A stretch of 20,603 bases of DNA, taken from the IMG/VR virus record IMGVR_UViG_3300023548_000007, positions 1 to 20,603 of that record; one strand, 5' to 3'. A program made the position numbers and the translations under genes. Below the pieces are notes generated by a model, which made no database searches, was not told where the DNA came from, and saw nothing but the letters and a program-made list of their open reading frames with translations. This DNA is from a virus. This document shows positions 753 to 12,362 of the stretch, one piece after another; positions within the stretch are counted from its first letter, which is position 1; each line of letters begins with the position of its first letter.

Positions 753-1355
753 ATGGAGGCGTTGAAGAAAAGAGTTTGCTATCGTTGCTGGAAAAAAAAG
801 TTCATCGGCGAGTTTCATGTCCTCGCTAATGGGCAGTACAGCTTAGCGTGCGAAGTTTGCTGGGCGGCAACGGCAAAGAAAATAGACGATGATGCCGAGT
901 CAGAGTTTATCATGCAGTGGTATCATCAGTTGATGGAAGCAGGACGCGAGGGCAGATTGCACCCGGCCTATTGCAGAGTCTTTGGCGTTGAGGCCGGACG
1001 GCACATCTGCGAGAAATGCGGCATGAGGCATTACACGGAACACGATGCGCGGATCTGTTGCTCGGAGCTGGGATGGGCGAGCGACAAGAAGAAATCGAAG
1101 CCTGAGTCAGTAGTAGGGGCCAGAGTGATCAATGGGCAGGCGTTGGCCGGGGCGATTCATGGGTTGAAAATCGAACGTGGCCACGACAACATCACGGACC
1201 TTGCGCGGGATATCGGGATAAACAAGGAGACTTTCAGAAAGATAGCGAAAGGGAAACCTGCCTATCTTTACCGCGCTACATATGCGAGCCTGATCCGGTT
1301 CTTTCCTCGCGGGATTCCTGGGGTGCAGGGGCCGCCGGTCGATTCATTACTCTGA
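753..1355 (+). CDS. zinc-ribbon plus helix-turn-helix protein, candidate phage regulator
   Basis: The 200-aa product starts with a classic CxxC-x20-CxxC zinc ribbon (Cys9/Cys12 and Cys33/Cys36). A second metal-site candidate follows at residues 84-103 (Cys86, Cys89, His93, His97, Cys102, Cys103). After a basic linker (112-117), residues 146-184 resemble a helix-turn-helix: NITDLARDIGINKETFRKIA, with the TDLARDIGI helix, a turn at Gly/Asn and a recognition-like NKETFRKIAKG. The domains suggest nucleic-acid binding, and it is the last gene before a strong promoter with an operator-like repeat. Control of late expression is therefore a reasonable inference but not shown. The start is fixed by GGAGGTGAT at 742-750. 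Alternatives are a homing-type or replication-associated zinc protein. No named family is recognised. Confidence 0.7.
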   Translation: MEALKKRVCYRCWKKKFIGEFHVLANGQYSLACEVCWAATAKKIDDDAESEFIMQWYHQLMEAGREGRLHPAYCRVFGVEAGRHICEKCGMRHYTEHDARICCSELGWASDKKKSKPESVVGARVINGQALAGAIHGLKIERGHDNITDLARDIGINKETFRKIAKGKPAYLYRATYASLIRFFPRGIPGVQGPPVDSLL

Positions 1356-1365
1356 CCAAGGGTGG

Positions 1366-1393
1366 TTGACAGGATTAGCGATCCTGCTATAAT
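1366..1393 (+). promoter_or_regulatory. consensus sigma70-type promoter with extended -10
   Basis: TTGACA (1366-1371) and TATAAT (1388-1393) both match the sigma70 consensus at all six positions, separated by 16 bp. A TGC directly before the -10 makes an extended -10 element. Transcription would start near 1399-1401, exactly where the first RNA hairpin begins. It lies just 3' of the zinc/HTH gene, upstream of the packaging operon. No other promoter of this quality was seen in the window. Confidence 0.85.
1370..1386. promoter_or_regulatory. operator-like inverted repeat inside the promoter spacer
   Basis: CAGGAT (1370-1375) and ATCCTG (1381-1386) are perfect inverted copies around a 5-bp centre, TAGCG. 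The repeat fills the gap between -35 and -10, so a bound dimeric repressor would block RNA polymerase. The upstream HTH protein is a candidate binder by position only. Confidence 0.45.
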
Positions 1394-1399
1394 CCCCGG

Positions 1400-1497
1400 T
1401 GCCGGGTTTGTGTGCCTCCTGTCCCCCGGCGTGGCCCAACCTCCACCTATTCCTAAGGGCCAGTGGCGGGCCGCTTCACCAAGTGGCCCGCTGTTTT
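1400..1497 (+). ncRNA. candidate small RNA or late-operon leader (about 98 nt, three hairpins)
   Basis: The transcript from the 1366-1393 promoter would fold into three consecutive hairpins with only 2-4 nt between them. Hairpin 1 pairs GCCGGG (1401-1406) with CCCGGC (1425-1430) around an 18-nt loop containing GCCTCCTG. Hairpin 2 pairs GGCCC (1433-1437) with GGGCC (1457-1461) around a 19-nt loop containing ACCTCCACC. Hairpin 3 is the terminator at 1466-1491. Both large loops display CCTCC, the anti-Shine-Dalgarno sequence, so binding to ribosome binding sites of phage or host mRNAs is plausible. Loop 2 is perfectly complementary over 8 nt to the site at 740-747. An alternative reading is a lambda pR'-tR'-like leader whose terminator must be overridden for late expression. 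No known RNA family is recognised. Confidence 0.6.
1466..1497 (+). terminator. strong intrinsic terminator
   Basis: Bases 1466-1476 pair with 1481-1491 (ten Watson-Crick pairs and one G-U) around a 4-nt CACC loop. The sequence TGTTTT follows at once, and further wobble pairs can extend the base. It lies about 100 nt after the promoter and ahead of the terminase genes, so late genes would need read-through, antitermination or another promoter. Confidence 0.8.
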
Positions 1498-1575
1498 ATA
1501 AGGTTAAGATATCGAAGAAACTCTCAGTGGTTTGAGGAAGATCGGTTCAAGTTTGCCGGGCTACTTGATGAGGTG

Positions 1576-1857
1576 ATGCAGGCCATCCCGGATGCCGACC
1601 TGTCGGACTTCATGCCGGAGGATCAAGACGATCTCGAGTCCCCTGTATCCCTCGCTTCCGGCGACTGGGGGGGTCCGGAAATCAACGAGAATCCGAAACT
1701 CGAAGGCCACAAGATTGTCGCCACCCTCGCCGATGATGATTTCGAGGCGTGGGAGAACTGGAAGGAGGCGGTCAAGGACGCGACCGGCGATGATTCCAAC
1801 GAAGAAGCCTTGCGGCCGCTGCTATACTACTGCCGGGATATTCAGCCAGGAGAGTGA
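1576..1857 (+). CDS. small acidic protein of unknown function, start uncertain
   Basis: The open frame ending at 1857 carries a very acidic product. Residues after the ATG at 1576 read MQAIPDADLSDFMPEDQDDL, followed by a helical half (EAWENWKEAVKDA) and a C-terminus LLYYCRDIQPGE, 93 aa in total. Neither GTG 1573 nor ATG 1576 has a properly spaced Shine-Dalgarno. The frame also looks coding upstream, with FEEDRFKFAGLLDEV encoded at 1531-1575. That suggests the real start lies near 1509, in another frame. The farthest upstream GTG (1399) would sit on the predicted transcription start and run through the terminator, so it is unlikely. It lies directly before the small terminase with a 6-nt gap. 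No domain is recognised. Confidence 0.5.
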   Translation: MQAIPDADLSDFMPEDQDDLESPVSLASGDWGGPEINENPKLEGHKIVATLADDDFEAWENWKEAVKDATGDDSNEEALRPLLYYCRDIQPGE

Positions 1858-1863
1858 CAGACG

Positions 1864-2412
1864 ATGACAAAGAAGATATACGAAGATGATCCCTTGGCGC
1901 GGGTATCGAAGGCCAGACTTGAACGGCTGCGGGCCGTTGAAGAACTGTACCTCAACGGATACAAGGCACGGGAAATCTATAACTTGCTGTCCTCGCGGGA
2001 GCGCGGAACCTACGATGTGACATATGGGACCATCCGCAACGATATTGTCATGGTCCGGAAACTGTGGGGGCATGACATACAGAATGGCGGCCTGGAGGGC
2101 CGGGAACGATACCTCGCGTCGCTCAAGGCGATGCGGCGCAAGGTGATGACCGGATGGCTGGAGGAAGGTCCGGACGGCCGGAAGCGGCGCGCTGGCCGGG
2201 ACTACAGGCTGGCCCACCAGATCGACAAAGAGATCGCACGGATCGAAGGCGTCGAGATTGCCAGCGATACGCACAAGATCCACTTGGATATCACGGCAGC
2301 GCGGTCGTTCATGGACAAGGTGATGGAGGCGATCTTCGAGGAGATCGACGATCCAGAACTCCAAGCCCGGATCGTTGCCAAACTGGAAGCGTCGGGGGCG
2401 GGCGGTGAATGA
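1864..2412 (+). CDS. terS: terminase small subunit-like DNA-binding protein
   Basis: This 182-aa charged protein has an N-terminal helix-turn-helix candidate (residues 20-66: AVEELYLNGYKAREIYNLL, then a recognition-type segment YDVTYGTIRNDI). The rest is a basic, mainly helical body. It ends in an amphipathic helix region (FMDKVMEAIFEEIDDPELQA). Small terminases recognise the packaging site and form a ring that loads the large subunit. The call rests on this HTH-plus-helices layout, on size, and on the ATGA overlap with the large terminase at 2409. Sequence similarity to a named family is not obvious, so the role is inferred mainly from synteny. AGGAGAG at 1848-1854 serves as the ribosome binding site. 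Confidence 0.7.
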   Translation: MTKKIYEDDPLARVSKARLERLRAVEELYLNGYKAREIYNLLSSRERGTYDVTYGTIRNDIVMVRKLWGHDIQNGGLEGRERYLASLKAMRRKVMTGWLEEGPDGRKRRAGRDYRLAHQIDKEIARIEGVEIASDTHKIHLDITAARSFMDKVMEAIFEEIDDPELQARIVAKLEASGAGGE

Positions 2413-3950
2413 CGAACCTTTTTGCGGAGTATGCACGGGCCGCGCGGAAGGCCGCACAAGAGGTCCAGGCGAGGAAGTATCAAGATGAGATCGAGCGGTG
2501 CCGGAGGGACCGCAATTTTTTCTGTGAATGGTGCTTTCAGGATCACGCGACGGGGCGGCAGATAACGCAGGCCAGACACCACCGGGATTGGCAGTCCCTC
2601 ACCAGCAAGAACCGCCGGCTGGTCGTGTGGTACCCGATTGAACACGGCAAGACCACCCAGGCAAAGATGGCCCTGTGTTGGTTGTTGGGGACCCATCCTG
2701 ATAGGCAGTACGCGTACATCTCCAGCAAACAGAATCAGGCCAACAAGATGATCGCCGCAGTCAAGCGAGAGATCGAGACGAATCATCGACTGCGGCTGGT
2801 ATTCCCCGACCTGAAGCCCCAGATGAGCGCGTTATCGAAGTCGCTGGAAGAATGGGGCAATACGAGAATCAGGGTTCACGGATGCCCGCCGGGCTCCCGT
2901 GATCCTTCACTCGCTGCCTACGGGCTCGACGGACAGATCCTAGGCTCCCGTCTGCACGGCGCGATCCTCGACAACATCCTCGACAAGAAGAACACACGGA
3001 GCCGGGCGTTGCGGGAGTGGGTTCTCGAAGTGATCGAGGATGAGATCATCGGGCGAATCATGGAGGGCGGGTTTATCTGGGTTCTCGACACGGCCTGGTT
3101 TGAGGATGACGCCCTGCATCAACTGGCCAACAAGCCGGGGTGGACCGCAGTTAAGCACGACGCAGAAACGCCGTTGGTTGAAGGCGCGGAAACATTGTGG
3201 CCCGAACAATGGCCGAAGGAGCGGTTGATGCGTCGGAAGAAGGAACTCGGCGCAACGGCTTTCGATCGGCAGTTCAGAAACCGACCGCTGGGGGAATCCA
3301 TGAACTTTTTCAGGAAGGAATACTGGGGCCGCTCATATGGGCGGTGTCCGTGGTTGGAGGCATGGCCAGATGGCTTCGATCCGCAAGTAGAGGTTCGTAC
3401 CGGCGTTGATCTTGCGACCAGAAAGGGTGAGACGAACGATTTGACGGTCATGACGACTGTGATTGCTCGCGGTGTCAGGCGACAGGTGGTGAATATCCGT
3501 GCTGAACGGATGGTCGCGACGGAGATCCTGCGTGCGATGATTGAGATATACCGGGCCTTGCATCGACCTGTTAATTTGGGAGGCGGGAATGCCCGGTTCG
3601 TGGTCGAGGACAATGCCGCTCAGGTTTATATCGTCCAGCTTCTGCAAGATGCCGGGACGCTCCAAAGTTTGGGGATGACGCTCGATGAGGCGACAGATAT
3701 CAGGGTGGTCGGTAGGACCACGACAGCAAAGCGGCGGGATCTTGAACTCGGTATCCCTGCGATCGCGTCCGGTATGGAAATGGACAGGTGGGACTTCCCG
3801 GCGCATCCTGAGGTGCGGGCCTTGTGGGATGAGATGAAAGTCTGGTCTCCAGATATAGATCACTACGGCGATAGGCTCATGTCCCTTTGGTTCGCGGCGG
3901 CAGACTTGCAAGAGACCGGCGGCGGTTGGTCGGTAATGATCGCCGAATAG
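2409..3950 (+). CDS. terL: terminase large subunit (packaging ATPase and nuclease)
   Basis: The 513-aa product has the two TerL domains. In the ATPase, the Walker A-like motif is YPIEHGKTTQ (residues 75-84, Lys81 and Thr82) and the Walker B-like strand is AILDNILD (185-192). A coupling-type motif WVLDTAW sits at 224-230. In the RNase H-fold nuclease, the metal-binding acids are in VDLATRKGETND (Asp334), FVVEDN (Glu400/Asp401) and DHYGDRLMS (Asp484/Asp488). The protein powers DNA entry through the portal and cuts the concatemer. Length is typical (450-600 aa). The Walker A is unusual in having Glu-His before Gly-Lys-Thr, and the Walker B ends in Asp with Asn at the preceding DD position. The start is coupled to the small terminase by an ATGA overlap; the portal follows 9 nt after the stop. 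Confidence 0.93.
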   Translation: MTNLFAEYARAARKAAQEVQARKYQDEIERCRRDRNFFCEWCFQDHATGRQITQARHHRDWQSLTSKNRRLVVWYPIEHGKTTQAKMALCWLLGTHPDRQYAYISSKQNQANKMIAAVKREIETNHRLRLVFPDLKPQMSALSKSLEEWGNTRIRVHGCPPGSRDPSLAAYGLDGQILGSRLHGAILDNILDKKNTRSRALREWVLEVIEDEIIGRIMEGGFIWVLDTAWFEDDALHQLANKPGWTAVKHDAETPLVEGAETLWPEQWPKERLMRRKKELGATAFDRQFRNRPLGESMNFFRKEYWGRSYGRCPWLEAWPDGFDPQVEVRTGVDLATRKGETNDLTVMTTVIARGVRRQVVNIRAERMVATEILRAMIEIYRALHRPVNLGGGNARFVVEDNAAQVYIVQLLQDAGTLQSLGMTLDEATDIRVVGRTTTAKRRDLELGIPAIASGMEMDRWDFPAHPEVRALWDEMKVWSPDIDHYGDRLMSLWFAAADLQETGGGWSVMIAE

Positions 3951-3959
3951 GGAGGAAGG

Positions 3960-6053
3960 ATGCTTGATCGTTTGAGGTATCGAATCGGGTCTGCGATCAT
4001 CGGGAAGGCGGCGACCACCTTTGGGCTCGCAAGTATCGGGCTTAGCAAGAACACGGGCGCGGCATTCGGGACAGGAATTGAATCGGCCTACTCTAACTCC
4101 TGGGTGGCCTATTCTTGTATTCGCAGGATCGCGCAGGACATCGCCGGACTGCCTACTGTGGTCAGGTCCGATCCTGTTGACCCTGAATCCGTCGTGTCGG
4201 ATTCTCATCCCTTGGTTCAGCTCATCAACAACCCTAACGACCTATTCAGCAAAAACGAGTTCATCCAGTGGATTGTGACCATGCTGAACTTGCGCGGCTC
4301 GTTCTTCATTGTTCTGAACGACCCATTACAACCAACCGAGCTTGTTCAGTACACGGACCCGCTGTATTGGCGGCCGGTGAAAGAAGGAAAGGATCTGGTC
4401 GGTTGGGAGTATCGGTATGCCTCCGATCATATCGTGGCGACCACCTTCGATGTGGTCAATCATCGGCTTATTAATCCTTCCGATCCCCTGACCGGACAAT
4501 CGCCGCTACAGGCGGCAGCGACGGCATATCAGATCGACATGGGGGCAAGTACCCTGCAGGCGGACATTGTTGCCCGTGGTGGCGAGCGGACGATCATGTA
4601 TGAAAGTTCCCAGCATCTTACAGACCCGCAACAGGCGCAGGCGTTGGCCGTTCTCCGTGGACGCCGGGCACAGAACAAGGTCGGCAAGGATGTAATCCTG
4701 CCGCCTGGGTTGAAACCTGTATCGCCCGATTTCCTGGAGGAGGACAAGAAGATCCTCGAAAGTCAGAAGATGCAGCCCGACAAGATTTGCGCCGTGTATG
4801 GCCTCGCCAAGTCCCTGCTCGGGCTGGAGGACATCGACAAGTACGCGACGTTCCTTGGCCGTGAACGGGTCTATTGGAGGAATACGATCCTTCCGATGAT
4901 CCGAGGAATCGAGTCATCCTTCGACAAGATTTTCGCCAACACGGTATCCGGTTCTTTTGCCGGGTTCATCCGGTTCGACCTGTCTAACGTCGAGGCGTTG
5001 CGGGAGGACACGGAGACACGGTTCAAGATCGCCGGGCAGGCCCACAAGGACGGTGTGCCCTGGACGGAATTGAATCGCCGCTTTGCTCTGGGTTTGGACA
5101 TGGATGCAATTCCCGGCGGTGATGCGGTGCTGGTCAACAGCACACTCGCGCCCATCGAGGAAGTTATCAGAGAATGGAAGAACCCTGCCGTTGAGCGGGC
5201 GGCAGGTGAGGCCGAACGCAAGGATGCGATGGCGAGCCCCGCCGATCAACTGACGAAGGCCGAATTAACCAACGAGTTAATCATTAGGCGAGCCACCGAC
5301 CCGCGCAATCTCATCCGGCGGCAGTTGAGGATACTGCGGCTTGAGAAACAGATGCGGACCGAGTGGAAGAAGTTGATCGGCGGGGCGATGAAGAAGGCCG
5401 AACGGCGGGCGGGGGATCTTGACTACCTGCGGAAACTGAAGAAAGAGACGGTCCCGAAGATGGCCGACCTCGCGGGTGAGTTCCATGTCAAGGCGGCAGA
5501 GATCGGGGCCTTGTCGATCGTGGAATTGATCGAGGGCAAGATCGCCGACCAGGATGAGGCGATGTTCCAGAAGGCGAAGTCCCTCCGGCCGGAGATTCGG
5601 GACTGGCTGAAAGATCGGCGCGGGCTAGTAACCGAGATGGGCGAAGCCCTTTTCAATGACGTTCTGGACAATGTGCAACGGGTGATCGACGCAGACGGAG
5701 GGCAGACTGATCTCCTGGAGACGATCCGGGGCCGGTTCCATTCTGGCAACGGCGGGATTAACAAAGCGGTGACGGTGGCTCGGACGGAGATCGGGAGCGC
5801 GGTCAATAATGCTCGGTTCGTGGAGATGAAGGCGCAAGGCTTTGAGCAGCATCAATGGCTGACGGCGGCTGATGAGCTTGTCAGGGGCGGCGGTGATGAT
5901 GAGTTCGACCATGCCTCTTGCGACGGGCAGGTCAGGAAGATCGGTCAGAAGTTTTCTTGCGGGTTGGAGTTCCCGATGGAGCCGGGCGGTGCACCGGGTA
6001 ACGTCATCAACTGCCGGTGCGAGACGATTCCGTTTGTGAAAGGTGGTCGATAA
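3960..6053 (+). CDS. portal protein fused to a C-terminal MuF-like domain
   Basis: The 697-aa product starts with an HK97-type portal (about 1-405). Supporting segments are SNSWVAYSCIRRIAQDIAGL (46-65), NLRGSFFIVLN (110-120), PLTGQSPLQAA (176-186) and PDKICAVYGLAKSLLG (273-288). A charged helical linker follows (about 410-585). The C-terminus (about 590-692) has the Mu gpF/SPP1 gp7 pattern: ARTEIGSAVNNARF (607-620), a DEFDHASCDGQV segment (647-658), EPGGAPGNVINCRC (674-687) and a terminal strand. The portal is the dodecameric DNA channel at one capsid vertex. MuF proteins are minor head proteins made as separate genes in many phages; the fusion would place one copy on every portal subunit. 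Cys654, Cys667, Cys685 and Cys687 may bind metal. GGAGG at 3951-3955 precedes the ATG. Confidence 0.92.
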   Translation: MLDRLRYRIGSAIIGKAATTFGLASIGLSKNTGAAFGTGIESAYSNSWVAYSCIRRIAQDIAGLPTVVRSDPVDPESVVSDSHPLVQLINNPNDLFSKNEFIQWIVTMLNLRGSFFIVLNDPLQPTELVQYTDPLYWRPVKEGKDLVGWEYRYASDHIVATTFDVVNHRLINPSDPLTGQSPLQAAATAYQIDMGASTLQADIVARGGERTIMYESSQHLTDPQQAQALAVLRGRRAQNKVGKDVILPPGLKPVSPDFLEEDKKILESQKMQPDKICAVYGLAKSLLGLEDIDKYATFLGRERVYWRNTILPMIRGIESSFDKIFANTVSGSFAGFIRFDLSNVEALREDTETRFKIAGQAHKDGVPWTELNRRFALGLDMDAIPGGDAVLVNSTLAPIEEVIREWKNPAVERAAGEAERKDAMASPADQLTKAELTNELIIRRATDPRNLIRRQLRILRLEKQMRTEWKKLIGGAMKKAERRAGDLDYLRKLKKETVPKMADLAGEFHVKAAEIGALSIVELIEGKIADQDEAMFQKAKSLRPEIRDWLKDRRGLVTEMGEALFNDVLDNVQRVIDADGGQTDLLETIRGRFHSGNGGINKAVTVARTEIGSAVNNARFVEMKAQGFEQHQWLTAADELVRGGGDDEFDHASCDGQVRKIGQKFSCGLEFPMEPGGAPGNVINCRCETIPFVKGGR

Positions 6054-11815: not shown

Positions 11816-11829
11816 AGAAAGGGGAAGCC

Positions 11830-12207
11830 ATGAAAGGCGATCAGATTCATGAGGCGGGAACGTTCGTCGTGAGTATTAACGGCGTGTCATTCAGATTGTG
11901 GCGACGTTCCACCTTCTTGATGGCAAGGGCGCGGGGGATCGGAAAGACCCTCGGCATCATTCATGGCGCGAATGAGGCGAAGCGGAAGGGCGAAGATGGA
12001 AAGGTCAGTTTCGATCTCGACGAATACAGCGGACTTGTTGAGTCGGTTGTAAGAGTCGCCCTCGTCGATCCGTATGTCGTGAGTGACGGCGAGGAGCCTG
12101 CGCCGCCTCGGTCCTACACTTTTGACCAGATCGCGCCGTTCGCTGACGCGCTGTTTGAATCGTTCATGAAAAGCGGCGTAGAAGTGGACCCTATGCCGCC
12201 CTCCTGA
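11830..12207 (+). CDS. tail assembly chaperone, G-like
   Basis: The ATG at 11830 has GGGGAAG a few bases upstream and follows the tube stop by 14 nt; an in-frame ATG at 11716 lies inside the tube gene and is rejected. The 125-aa product has an early beta hairpin (TFVVSINGVSFRLWRR), a helical core (SGLVESVVRVALVDPYVVSD) and an acidic/proline end. Its place between tube and tape measure genes defines it as the gpG-type chaperone, which coats the tape measure before tube assembly. The last codons overlap a slip site and hairpin, so a minority product probably continues in the -1 frame into the next ORF as a 177-residue G-T fusion. Confidence 0.75.
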   Translation: MKGDQIHEAGTFVVSINGVSFRLWRRSTFLMARARGIGKTLGIIHGANEAKRKGEDGKVSFDLDEYSGLVESVVRVALVDPYVVSDGEEPAPPRSYTFDQIAPFADALFESFMKSGVEVDPMPPS

Positions 12208-12222
12208 AAGGAGCAGGAGGGC
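12186..12222 (+). promoter_or_regulatory. candidate programmed -1 frameshift signal
   Basis: GGACCCT (12186-12192) lets the Pro codon CCT re-pair as CCC. After a 5-nt spacer comes a perfect 9-bp stem: GCCCTCCTG (12198-12206), a 7-nt loop, and CAGGAGGGC (12214-12222). The -1 frame is open from 12159 to the TGA at 12360. The heptamer is not a classic X-XXY-YYZ, since the upstream Asp codon re-pairs poorly. Geometry and gene context are as expected for lambda-like G/GT frameshifting. Confidence 0.55.
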
Positions 12223-12227
12223 TAGAG

Positions 12228-12362
12228 ATGGCGCAGATATTACACGCTCTTTCTATACATTACGGGCAGCCGCCGCACTACTGGCTGGAACTTGACGACG
12301 TTTTGACGGCCTTCGATTACGAGGTGTTGACCAAGGCGAAAGCGATGGAGCAGACGGCATGA
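12228..12362 (+). CDS. tail assembly chaperone T-like ORF (44 aa, or T part of a G-T fusion)
   Basis: ATG at 12228 encodes 44 residues including ILHALSIHYGQPPHYWLELD and LTAFDYEVLTKAKAMEQ. The 'YG.PP' helix pattern resembles the second chaperone ORF of siphoviruses. Two ways of making it are visible. One is internal initiation from AGGAGG (12215-12220, 7 nt ahead). The other is -1 frameshifting from the G-like gene at about 12192, which would add YAALLKGAGGLE before this Met. The ribosome binding site is the 3' arm of the frameshift hairpin, so free initiation should be poor unless upstream translation opens it. The stop overlaps the tape measure start (ATGA). Function is assigned from context. 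Confidence 0.65.
   Translation: MAQILHALSIHYGQPPHYWLELDDVLTAFDYEVLTKAKAMEQTA

Follow-up and report, generated by a model that had tools for sequence, protein, structure and literature searches.

The sX13 RNA of Xanthomonas features three stable stems and three apical C-rich loops, acts independently of Hfq, and represses mRNAs with G-rich motifs in the ribosome-binding site (RBS) (PMC3771888). In the alpha-r14 RNAs, each of the three hairpins presents an unpaired CCUCCUCCC; translation starts are the sites at which these RNAs pair (PMC10746234).

A second group of described systems works at late promoters. Phage 21 Q, AlpA, and GafZ are proteins with binding sites between the −35 and −10 elements; with them, RNA polymerase passes terminators and reaches lysis or structural genes (PMC6606751, PMC7969949, PMC11150451). 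The element of GafZ, likewise located between −35 and −10, is a near-perfect palindrome ahead of a phage-like structural operon (PMC11150451). The Q proteins, without exception, and AlpA depend on a −10-like pause element within the initially transcribed region (PMC9371919, PMC6606751).

Two phage RNAs are also of relevance. The put RNAs have a length of ~70 nt and fold into two stem-loops; putL is located just downstream of its own promoter (PMC9378689). Their described features are a bulged stem I, an RNA triple helix, and, in putL, a −10-like sequence (PMC9378689). StxS is a trans-acting phage RNA of 74 nt (PMC12197685).

The locus described here belongs to a 20.6-kb window—the whole stretch of viral DNA that was analyzed, 20,603 nucleotides in length—and sits at the early/late border, between the gene of a Cys-rich HTH protein and terS–terL. 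Positions 1366–1497 hold a real, well-formed promoter–RNA–terminator unit, of which a single occurrence was seen. Its promoter, hairpin, and terminator sequences are evident and suggest that it is transcribed. The region is laid out as follows:

234–734: RuvC-type resolvase, upstream of the unit
753–1355, plus strand: protein of 200 aa that has Cys-x2-Cys pairs and carries an HTH of Cro/C1 type at its C terminus, possible regulator of the promoter
1366–1393, plus strand: sigma-70 type promoter, TTGACA-16-TGCTATAAT, with a TG extended −10 and 12/12 consensus matches
1370–1386, no strand: perfect 6-bp dyad CAGGAT-TAGCG-ATCCTG, candidate operator or antiterminator-binding site
1400–1497, plus strand: predicted non-coding RNA of ~98 nt, with ends deduced from the promoter spacing and the terminator T-run
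1401–1430, plus strand: stem-loop 1, 6-bp stem GCCGGG/CCCGGC (1401–1406/1425–1430) and 18-nt loop
1432–1462, plus strand: stem-loop 2, 6-bp stem UGGCCC/GGGCCA (1432–1437/1457–1462) and 19-nt loop
1465–1497, plus strand: intrinsic terminator, stem of 11–12 bp (1465–1476/1481–1492), CACC loop, and UGUUUUA tail
1511–1857, plus strand: 5′-truncated ParB-like ORF without N-terminal domain, first in-frame start codon GTG at 1573
1864–2412, plus strand: putative terminase small subunit (by position), start of the late operon
2409–3950, plus strand: terminase large subunit (TerL), start of the late operon

TerL is followed by portal, protease, capsid, and more genes up to the endolysin, all on the plus strand. 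The protein encoded by 753–1355 carries two Cys-x2-Cys pairs near the N terminus, more Cys residues in the middle, and the HTH at the C terminus; the latter matches HTH_26 with an E-value of 4.9e-4 and 20.7 bits versus a cut-off of 22. An AlphaFold model from the one sequence has a pLDDT of 43 and was set aside. Relatives of the protein were searched for in phages, in viral and genome contigs, and in the 11 related contigs, and none was found. The nearest relative, L002 (TerL 63% identical), encodes a ParB_N-type protein of 204 aa whose C-terminal part is matched by the ParB-like ORF 1511–1857. In L002, the ParB-like gene adjoining terS is intact (16–630); the copy in the window lacks the first ~88 codons, the start codon, and the RBS.

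The −35 element TTGACA of the promoter occupies 1366–1371 and the −10 element TATAAT 1388–1393, separated by a 16-bp spacer (GGATTAGCGATCCTGC). In the promoter scan, this is the sole site of the window scoring 12/12, the runner-up reaching 10/12, so that the full-consensus TTGACA-16 bp-TATAAT promoter with extended −10 described in the earlier note is borne out as the best one in the window. For weak promoter sites, shuffled sequence yields as many in the same scan as the window itself. The spacer between −35 and −10 is filled by the dyad CAGGAT-TAGCG-ATCCTG, a feature absent from the earlier note and newly found here. By chance, 0.013 dyads are expected per 22-bp zone. The dyad is exact at 1370–1386, and the two other matches in the window bear two mismatches each.

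The fold of 1395–1500 contains three stem-loops, the last of which is a terminator with T-run, just as had been claimed, and the transcript of ~98 nt holds as a prediction from promoter spacing and T-run. The minimum free energy is −44 kcal/mol compared with −38.1 ± 3.4 for shuffles (z −1.73), with 8 of 200 shuffles equally good. The whole fold is, hence, just modestly unusual, and the last hairpin supplies most of its strength. This hairpin (GCGGGCCGCTT-CACC-AAGTGGCCCGC followed by TGTTTTAT) has a ΔG of −20.5 versus −17.5 for the runner-up, making it the strongest hairpin-plus-T site on both strands of the window. It is missing from the terminator list of the promoter/terminator scan and is ranked strongest by the separate hairpin-plus-T scan; in our reading, the former overlooked it because extension of the stem via G–U pairs consumes the T-run. 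In the 128 kb of window plus relatives, there is one case of a 12/12 promoter with a −20 kcal terminator no more than 260 nt behind it. The near absence of unpaired bases between the hairpins, reported previously, stands, as a single base links stems 1 and 2 and two bases link stems 2 and 3; the large 18- and 19-nt loops had gone unmentioned. As for the sole sizeable gene-free stretch that the unit was said to occupy, 1356–1512 (157 nt) is the largest one without an accepted gene; the gaps 85–233 and 12208–12358 carry small ORFs. The predicted RNA opens with 38 nt (1400–1437) devoid of A, which is unusual for a genome of 57% GC. A protein-coding role for ORF 1399–1857 was rejected: its first 37 codons cross the hairpins, and homology is found solely from 1511 on. 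An integron attC site was rejected as well, no matching partner box being found by eye, and a tRNA/tmRNA search returned none.

Both large apical loops expose CCUCC, the anti-Shine–Dalgarno core. In stem-loop 1, the loop includes CCUCCUGUCCC, with CCUCC at 1415–1419 and an unpaired probability of 0.60 to 1.00; in stem-loop 2, the loop includes ACCUCCACC, with CCUCC at 1440–1444 and an unpaired probability of 1.00. The unit, hence, has what marks C-rich-loop sRNAs: an unpaired anti-Shine–Dalgarno motif in more than one apical loop. Out of 2000 dinucleotide shuffles, one (0.05%) places CCUCC in two separate apical loops (background 17 CCUCC in 20.6 kb), a figure that overstates the true significance since the motif was picked after the loops were viewed. 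Between loop 2 and the RBS of gene 753–1355, complementarity extends over 8 nt (GUGGAGGU)—the sole occurrence of GUGGAGGU in the window, GTGGAGGT likewise being single in it. This pairing is unspecific, as 2.8% of random 40-mers pair equally well; any strong Shine–Dalgarno site may score similarly, and we do not claim this RBS as a target.

The Rfam comparison proposed in the earlier note gave no family matching the unit at the gathering threshold. At relaxed threshold, the best match is CcsR1 (RF02791), covering the full length at 18.7 bits, far below the curated gathering cut-off of 65.3 that membership takes. Its E-value of 0.017 refers to the 201-nt stretch; for the whole window against all families, an E-value near 1.7 is estimated from a single-family value. 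Subthreshold matches also occur in 12 of 14 control genomes. We therefore take the match to hint at a kind of RNA and not to establish membership. The CcsR1/alpha-r14 "cuckoo" RNAs of alphaproteobacteria resemble the unit in being short, with closely spaced hairpins, CCUCC-type loops, and a terminal intrinsic terminator. They differ from it by their CCUCCUCCC loops, compared with CCUCCUGUCCC and ACCUCCACC in the phage-encoded unit: CCUCCUCCC is absent from its apical loops, which are both C-rich and contain just CCUCC or CCUCCU. The relaxed-threshold list also includes a C-rich-loop sRNA, sX13 (RF02232), at an E-value of 5.2, a value indicating no sequence relationship. sX13 shares with the unit three stable stems, C-rich apical loops, and compactness; unlike the unit, it has an unstructured 5′ region and CCCC motifs and is a cellular gene.

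The reading that we tentatively prefer, as the most likely one, is a stand-alone phage sRNA of the C-rich-loop kind. The 12/12 promoter and the strongest terminator of the window enclose just 98 non-coding nucleotides. Host RNA polymerase would start at ~1400 at the consensus promoter, stop at ~1497, and release a stiff RNA of ~98 nt. The CCUCC of its two apical loops would pair with Shine–Dalgarno sequences of mRNAs and block ribosome binding, in the manner of the C-rich-loop sRNAs sX13, alpha-r14/NfeR1, and RNAIII; possible targets include phage mRNAs. The promoter dyad would act as an operator, at which a dimeric HTH regulator, perhaps encoded by the upstream gene, turns the RNA off or times it at the early/late border. 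Most simply, the unit adds a phage-carried case to the already known compact, structured sRNAs that have C-rich loops. Should the RNA be real, the phage would be using, at the switch to the late genes, an anti-Shine–Dalgarno multi-loop design known from cellular sRNAs. The stand-alone regulatory RNA put forward in the earlier note is upheld in part: the anatomy fits a discrete short RNA, and the CCUCC loops add support; a leader reading fits the position equally well.

Conservation lends the sRNA reading no support, no homologue of the unit being found in anything searched. By the searches used, phages, plasmids, viral contigs, and related contigs contain no relatives. The unit DNA gave one 24-nt match against phages and plasmids (E-value 0.5), located at the query end and covering just the last 6 nt of the RNA, and the promoter patterns were not found in viral contigs. 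A covariance model built from the single unit sequence—a weak kind of model—found nothing in the 11 related contigs; in the window, it found the unit alone plus the reverse of its own terminator hairpin. The TerL search yielded about a dozen related viral contigs and none among genome contigs. L002 aside, the regions upstream of terS in these relatives differ from the window and from one another. L002 is the sole contig with a homologous flank; it starts at the ParB gene, inside this flank, and the place of the unit lies beyond its edge.

The position of the unit, directly ahead of the late operon, agrees with a leader no less than with an sRNA, and the terminated late-operon leader is an alternative missing from the earlier note. 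It is a close second to the sRNA reading and, taken by itself, possible rather than probable. The short RNA would be the terminated leader of a late operon under processive antitermination, like the short pR′ transcript of lambda. The promoter would be constitutive with a default stop at 1497, until a phage protein (candidate 753–1355) binds the dyad and loads onto RNA polymerase, which would then pass the terminator into terS–terL and the structural genes. The gene order is in favor: candidate regulator, promoter, terminator, and late operon. Ahead of the late genes there is just one strong promoter, and the strongest terminator, an intrinsic one (1465–1497, ΔG −20.5), lies between it and the first late gene. 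The dyad is found between −35 and −10, as are all the elements of phage 21 Q, AlpA, and GafZ, and the terminator begins ~65 nt after the start compared with 54 nt for AlpA (PMC7969949). The unit resembles the known late leaders in having a promoter with a candidate −35/−10 element, a downstream terminator, and a lysis or structural operon behind it: pR′–tR′ of lambda and 21, alpB of P. aeruginosa, and gtaT of Caulobacter with its GafZ site.

However, the unit differs from these leaders by two extra GC stem-loops before the terminator, by the lack of a recognizable antiterminator, and by the lack of a −10-like pause element. With its first A at about +39, the predicted transcript has no A among nucleotides 1 to 38, and xAxxxT is absent from its first 31 nt. 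Loading in a GafZ-like or yet another way may apply. The HTH of 753–1355 scores as Cro/C1 type, and neither a link of this protein to any antiterminator nor a family match was detectable. Moreover, no such unit precedes terS in those TerL relatives that include the upstream region; one of them, L003, has a bare promoter directly ahead of terS. If the unit is a late leader instead of an sRNA, 753–1355 would point to a candidate family of antiterminators dissimilar to those already known.

A different view of the locus comes from its downstream edge. Homology to L002 begins abruptly at 1511, 14 nt past the terminator, and the ParB-like ORF is missing both its N-terminal domain and its start codon; therefore, the place of the unit is either a joint made by recombination or a misassembly of the contig. 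Since the ParB-like frame still runs open to its normal end, the loss may have happened recently or may reflect an assembly joint. Accordingly, the unit could be recombination debris or an assembly junction, pasted beside a broken parB-like gene and now without function, and its absence from all relatives agrees with this. Decaying DNA would not be expected to combine a 12/12 promoter with a perfect dyad, three clean stems, and a strong terminator, and we regard this origin as unlikely.

Somewhat less likely still is a combination of both roles, in which the terminated late leader has gained a role in trans. StxS, which arises by early termination of a late transcript, is the phage precedent. 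The position and the anti-Shine–Dalgarno loops agree with a dual role, which, however, carries the burdens of both readings, including the missing sigma-pause element. Another reading, a gate, appears slightly more doubtful yet: the default product of the late promoter would be a multi-loop anti-Shine–Dalgarno RNA damping the translation of early or host genes, and the Cys-rich HTH protein, of a new kind, would read the promoter palindrome and convert this state to late read-through without a sigma-dependent pause. A cis-acting antiterminator RNA of the HK022 put type, whose two adjacent 5′ stem-loops let polymerase ignore terminators, was dropped as very improbable: the unit does resemble put in its two stem-loops at the very 5′ end of a phage transcript, one base apart, but these are simple 6-bp stems with 18- to 19-nt loops that, compared by description, lack the put features (PMC9378689), and a put element ending at once in a terminator would be self-defeating unless leaky.

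Two further observations concern the late operon. The portal (3960–6053) is apparently fused to a Mu gpF-like head-morphogenesis domain (Phage_portal 50–365, Phage_Mu_F 580–690). Farther downstream, the gene 11827–12207 is followed by a short overlapping frame (ALLKGAGGLEMAQILHALSIHYGQPPHYW...) ahead of a 768-aa tape-measure-like gene at 12359, and a hairpin CCCTCCT...AGGAGGG is located at the junction within 11827–12358. This pair may represent the G/GT-type frameshift of tail chaperones.
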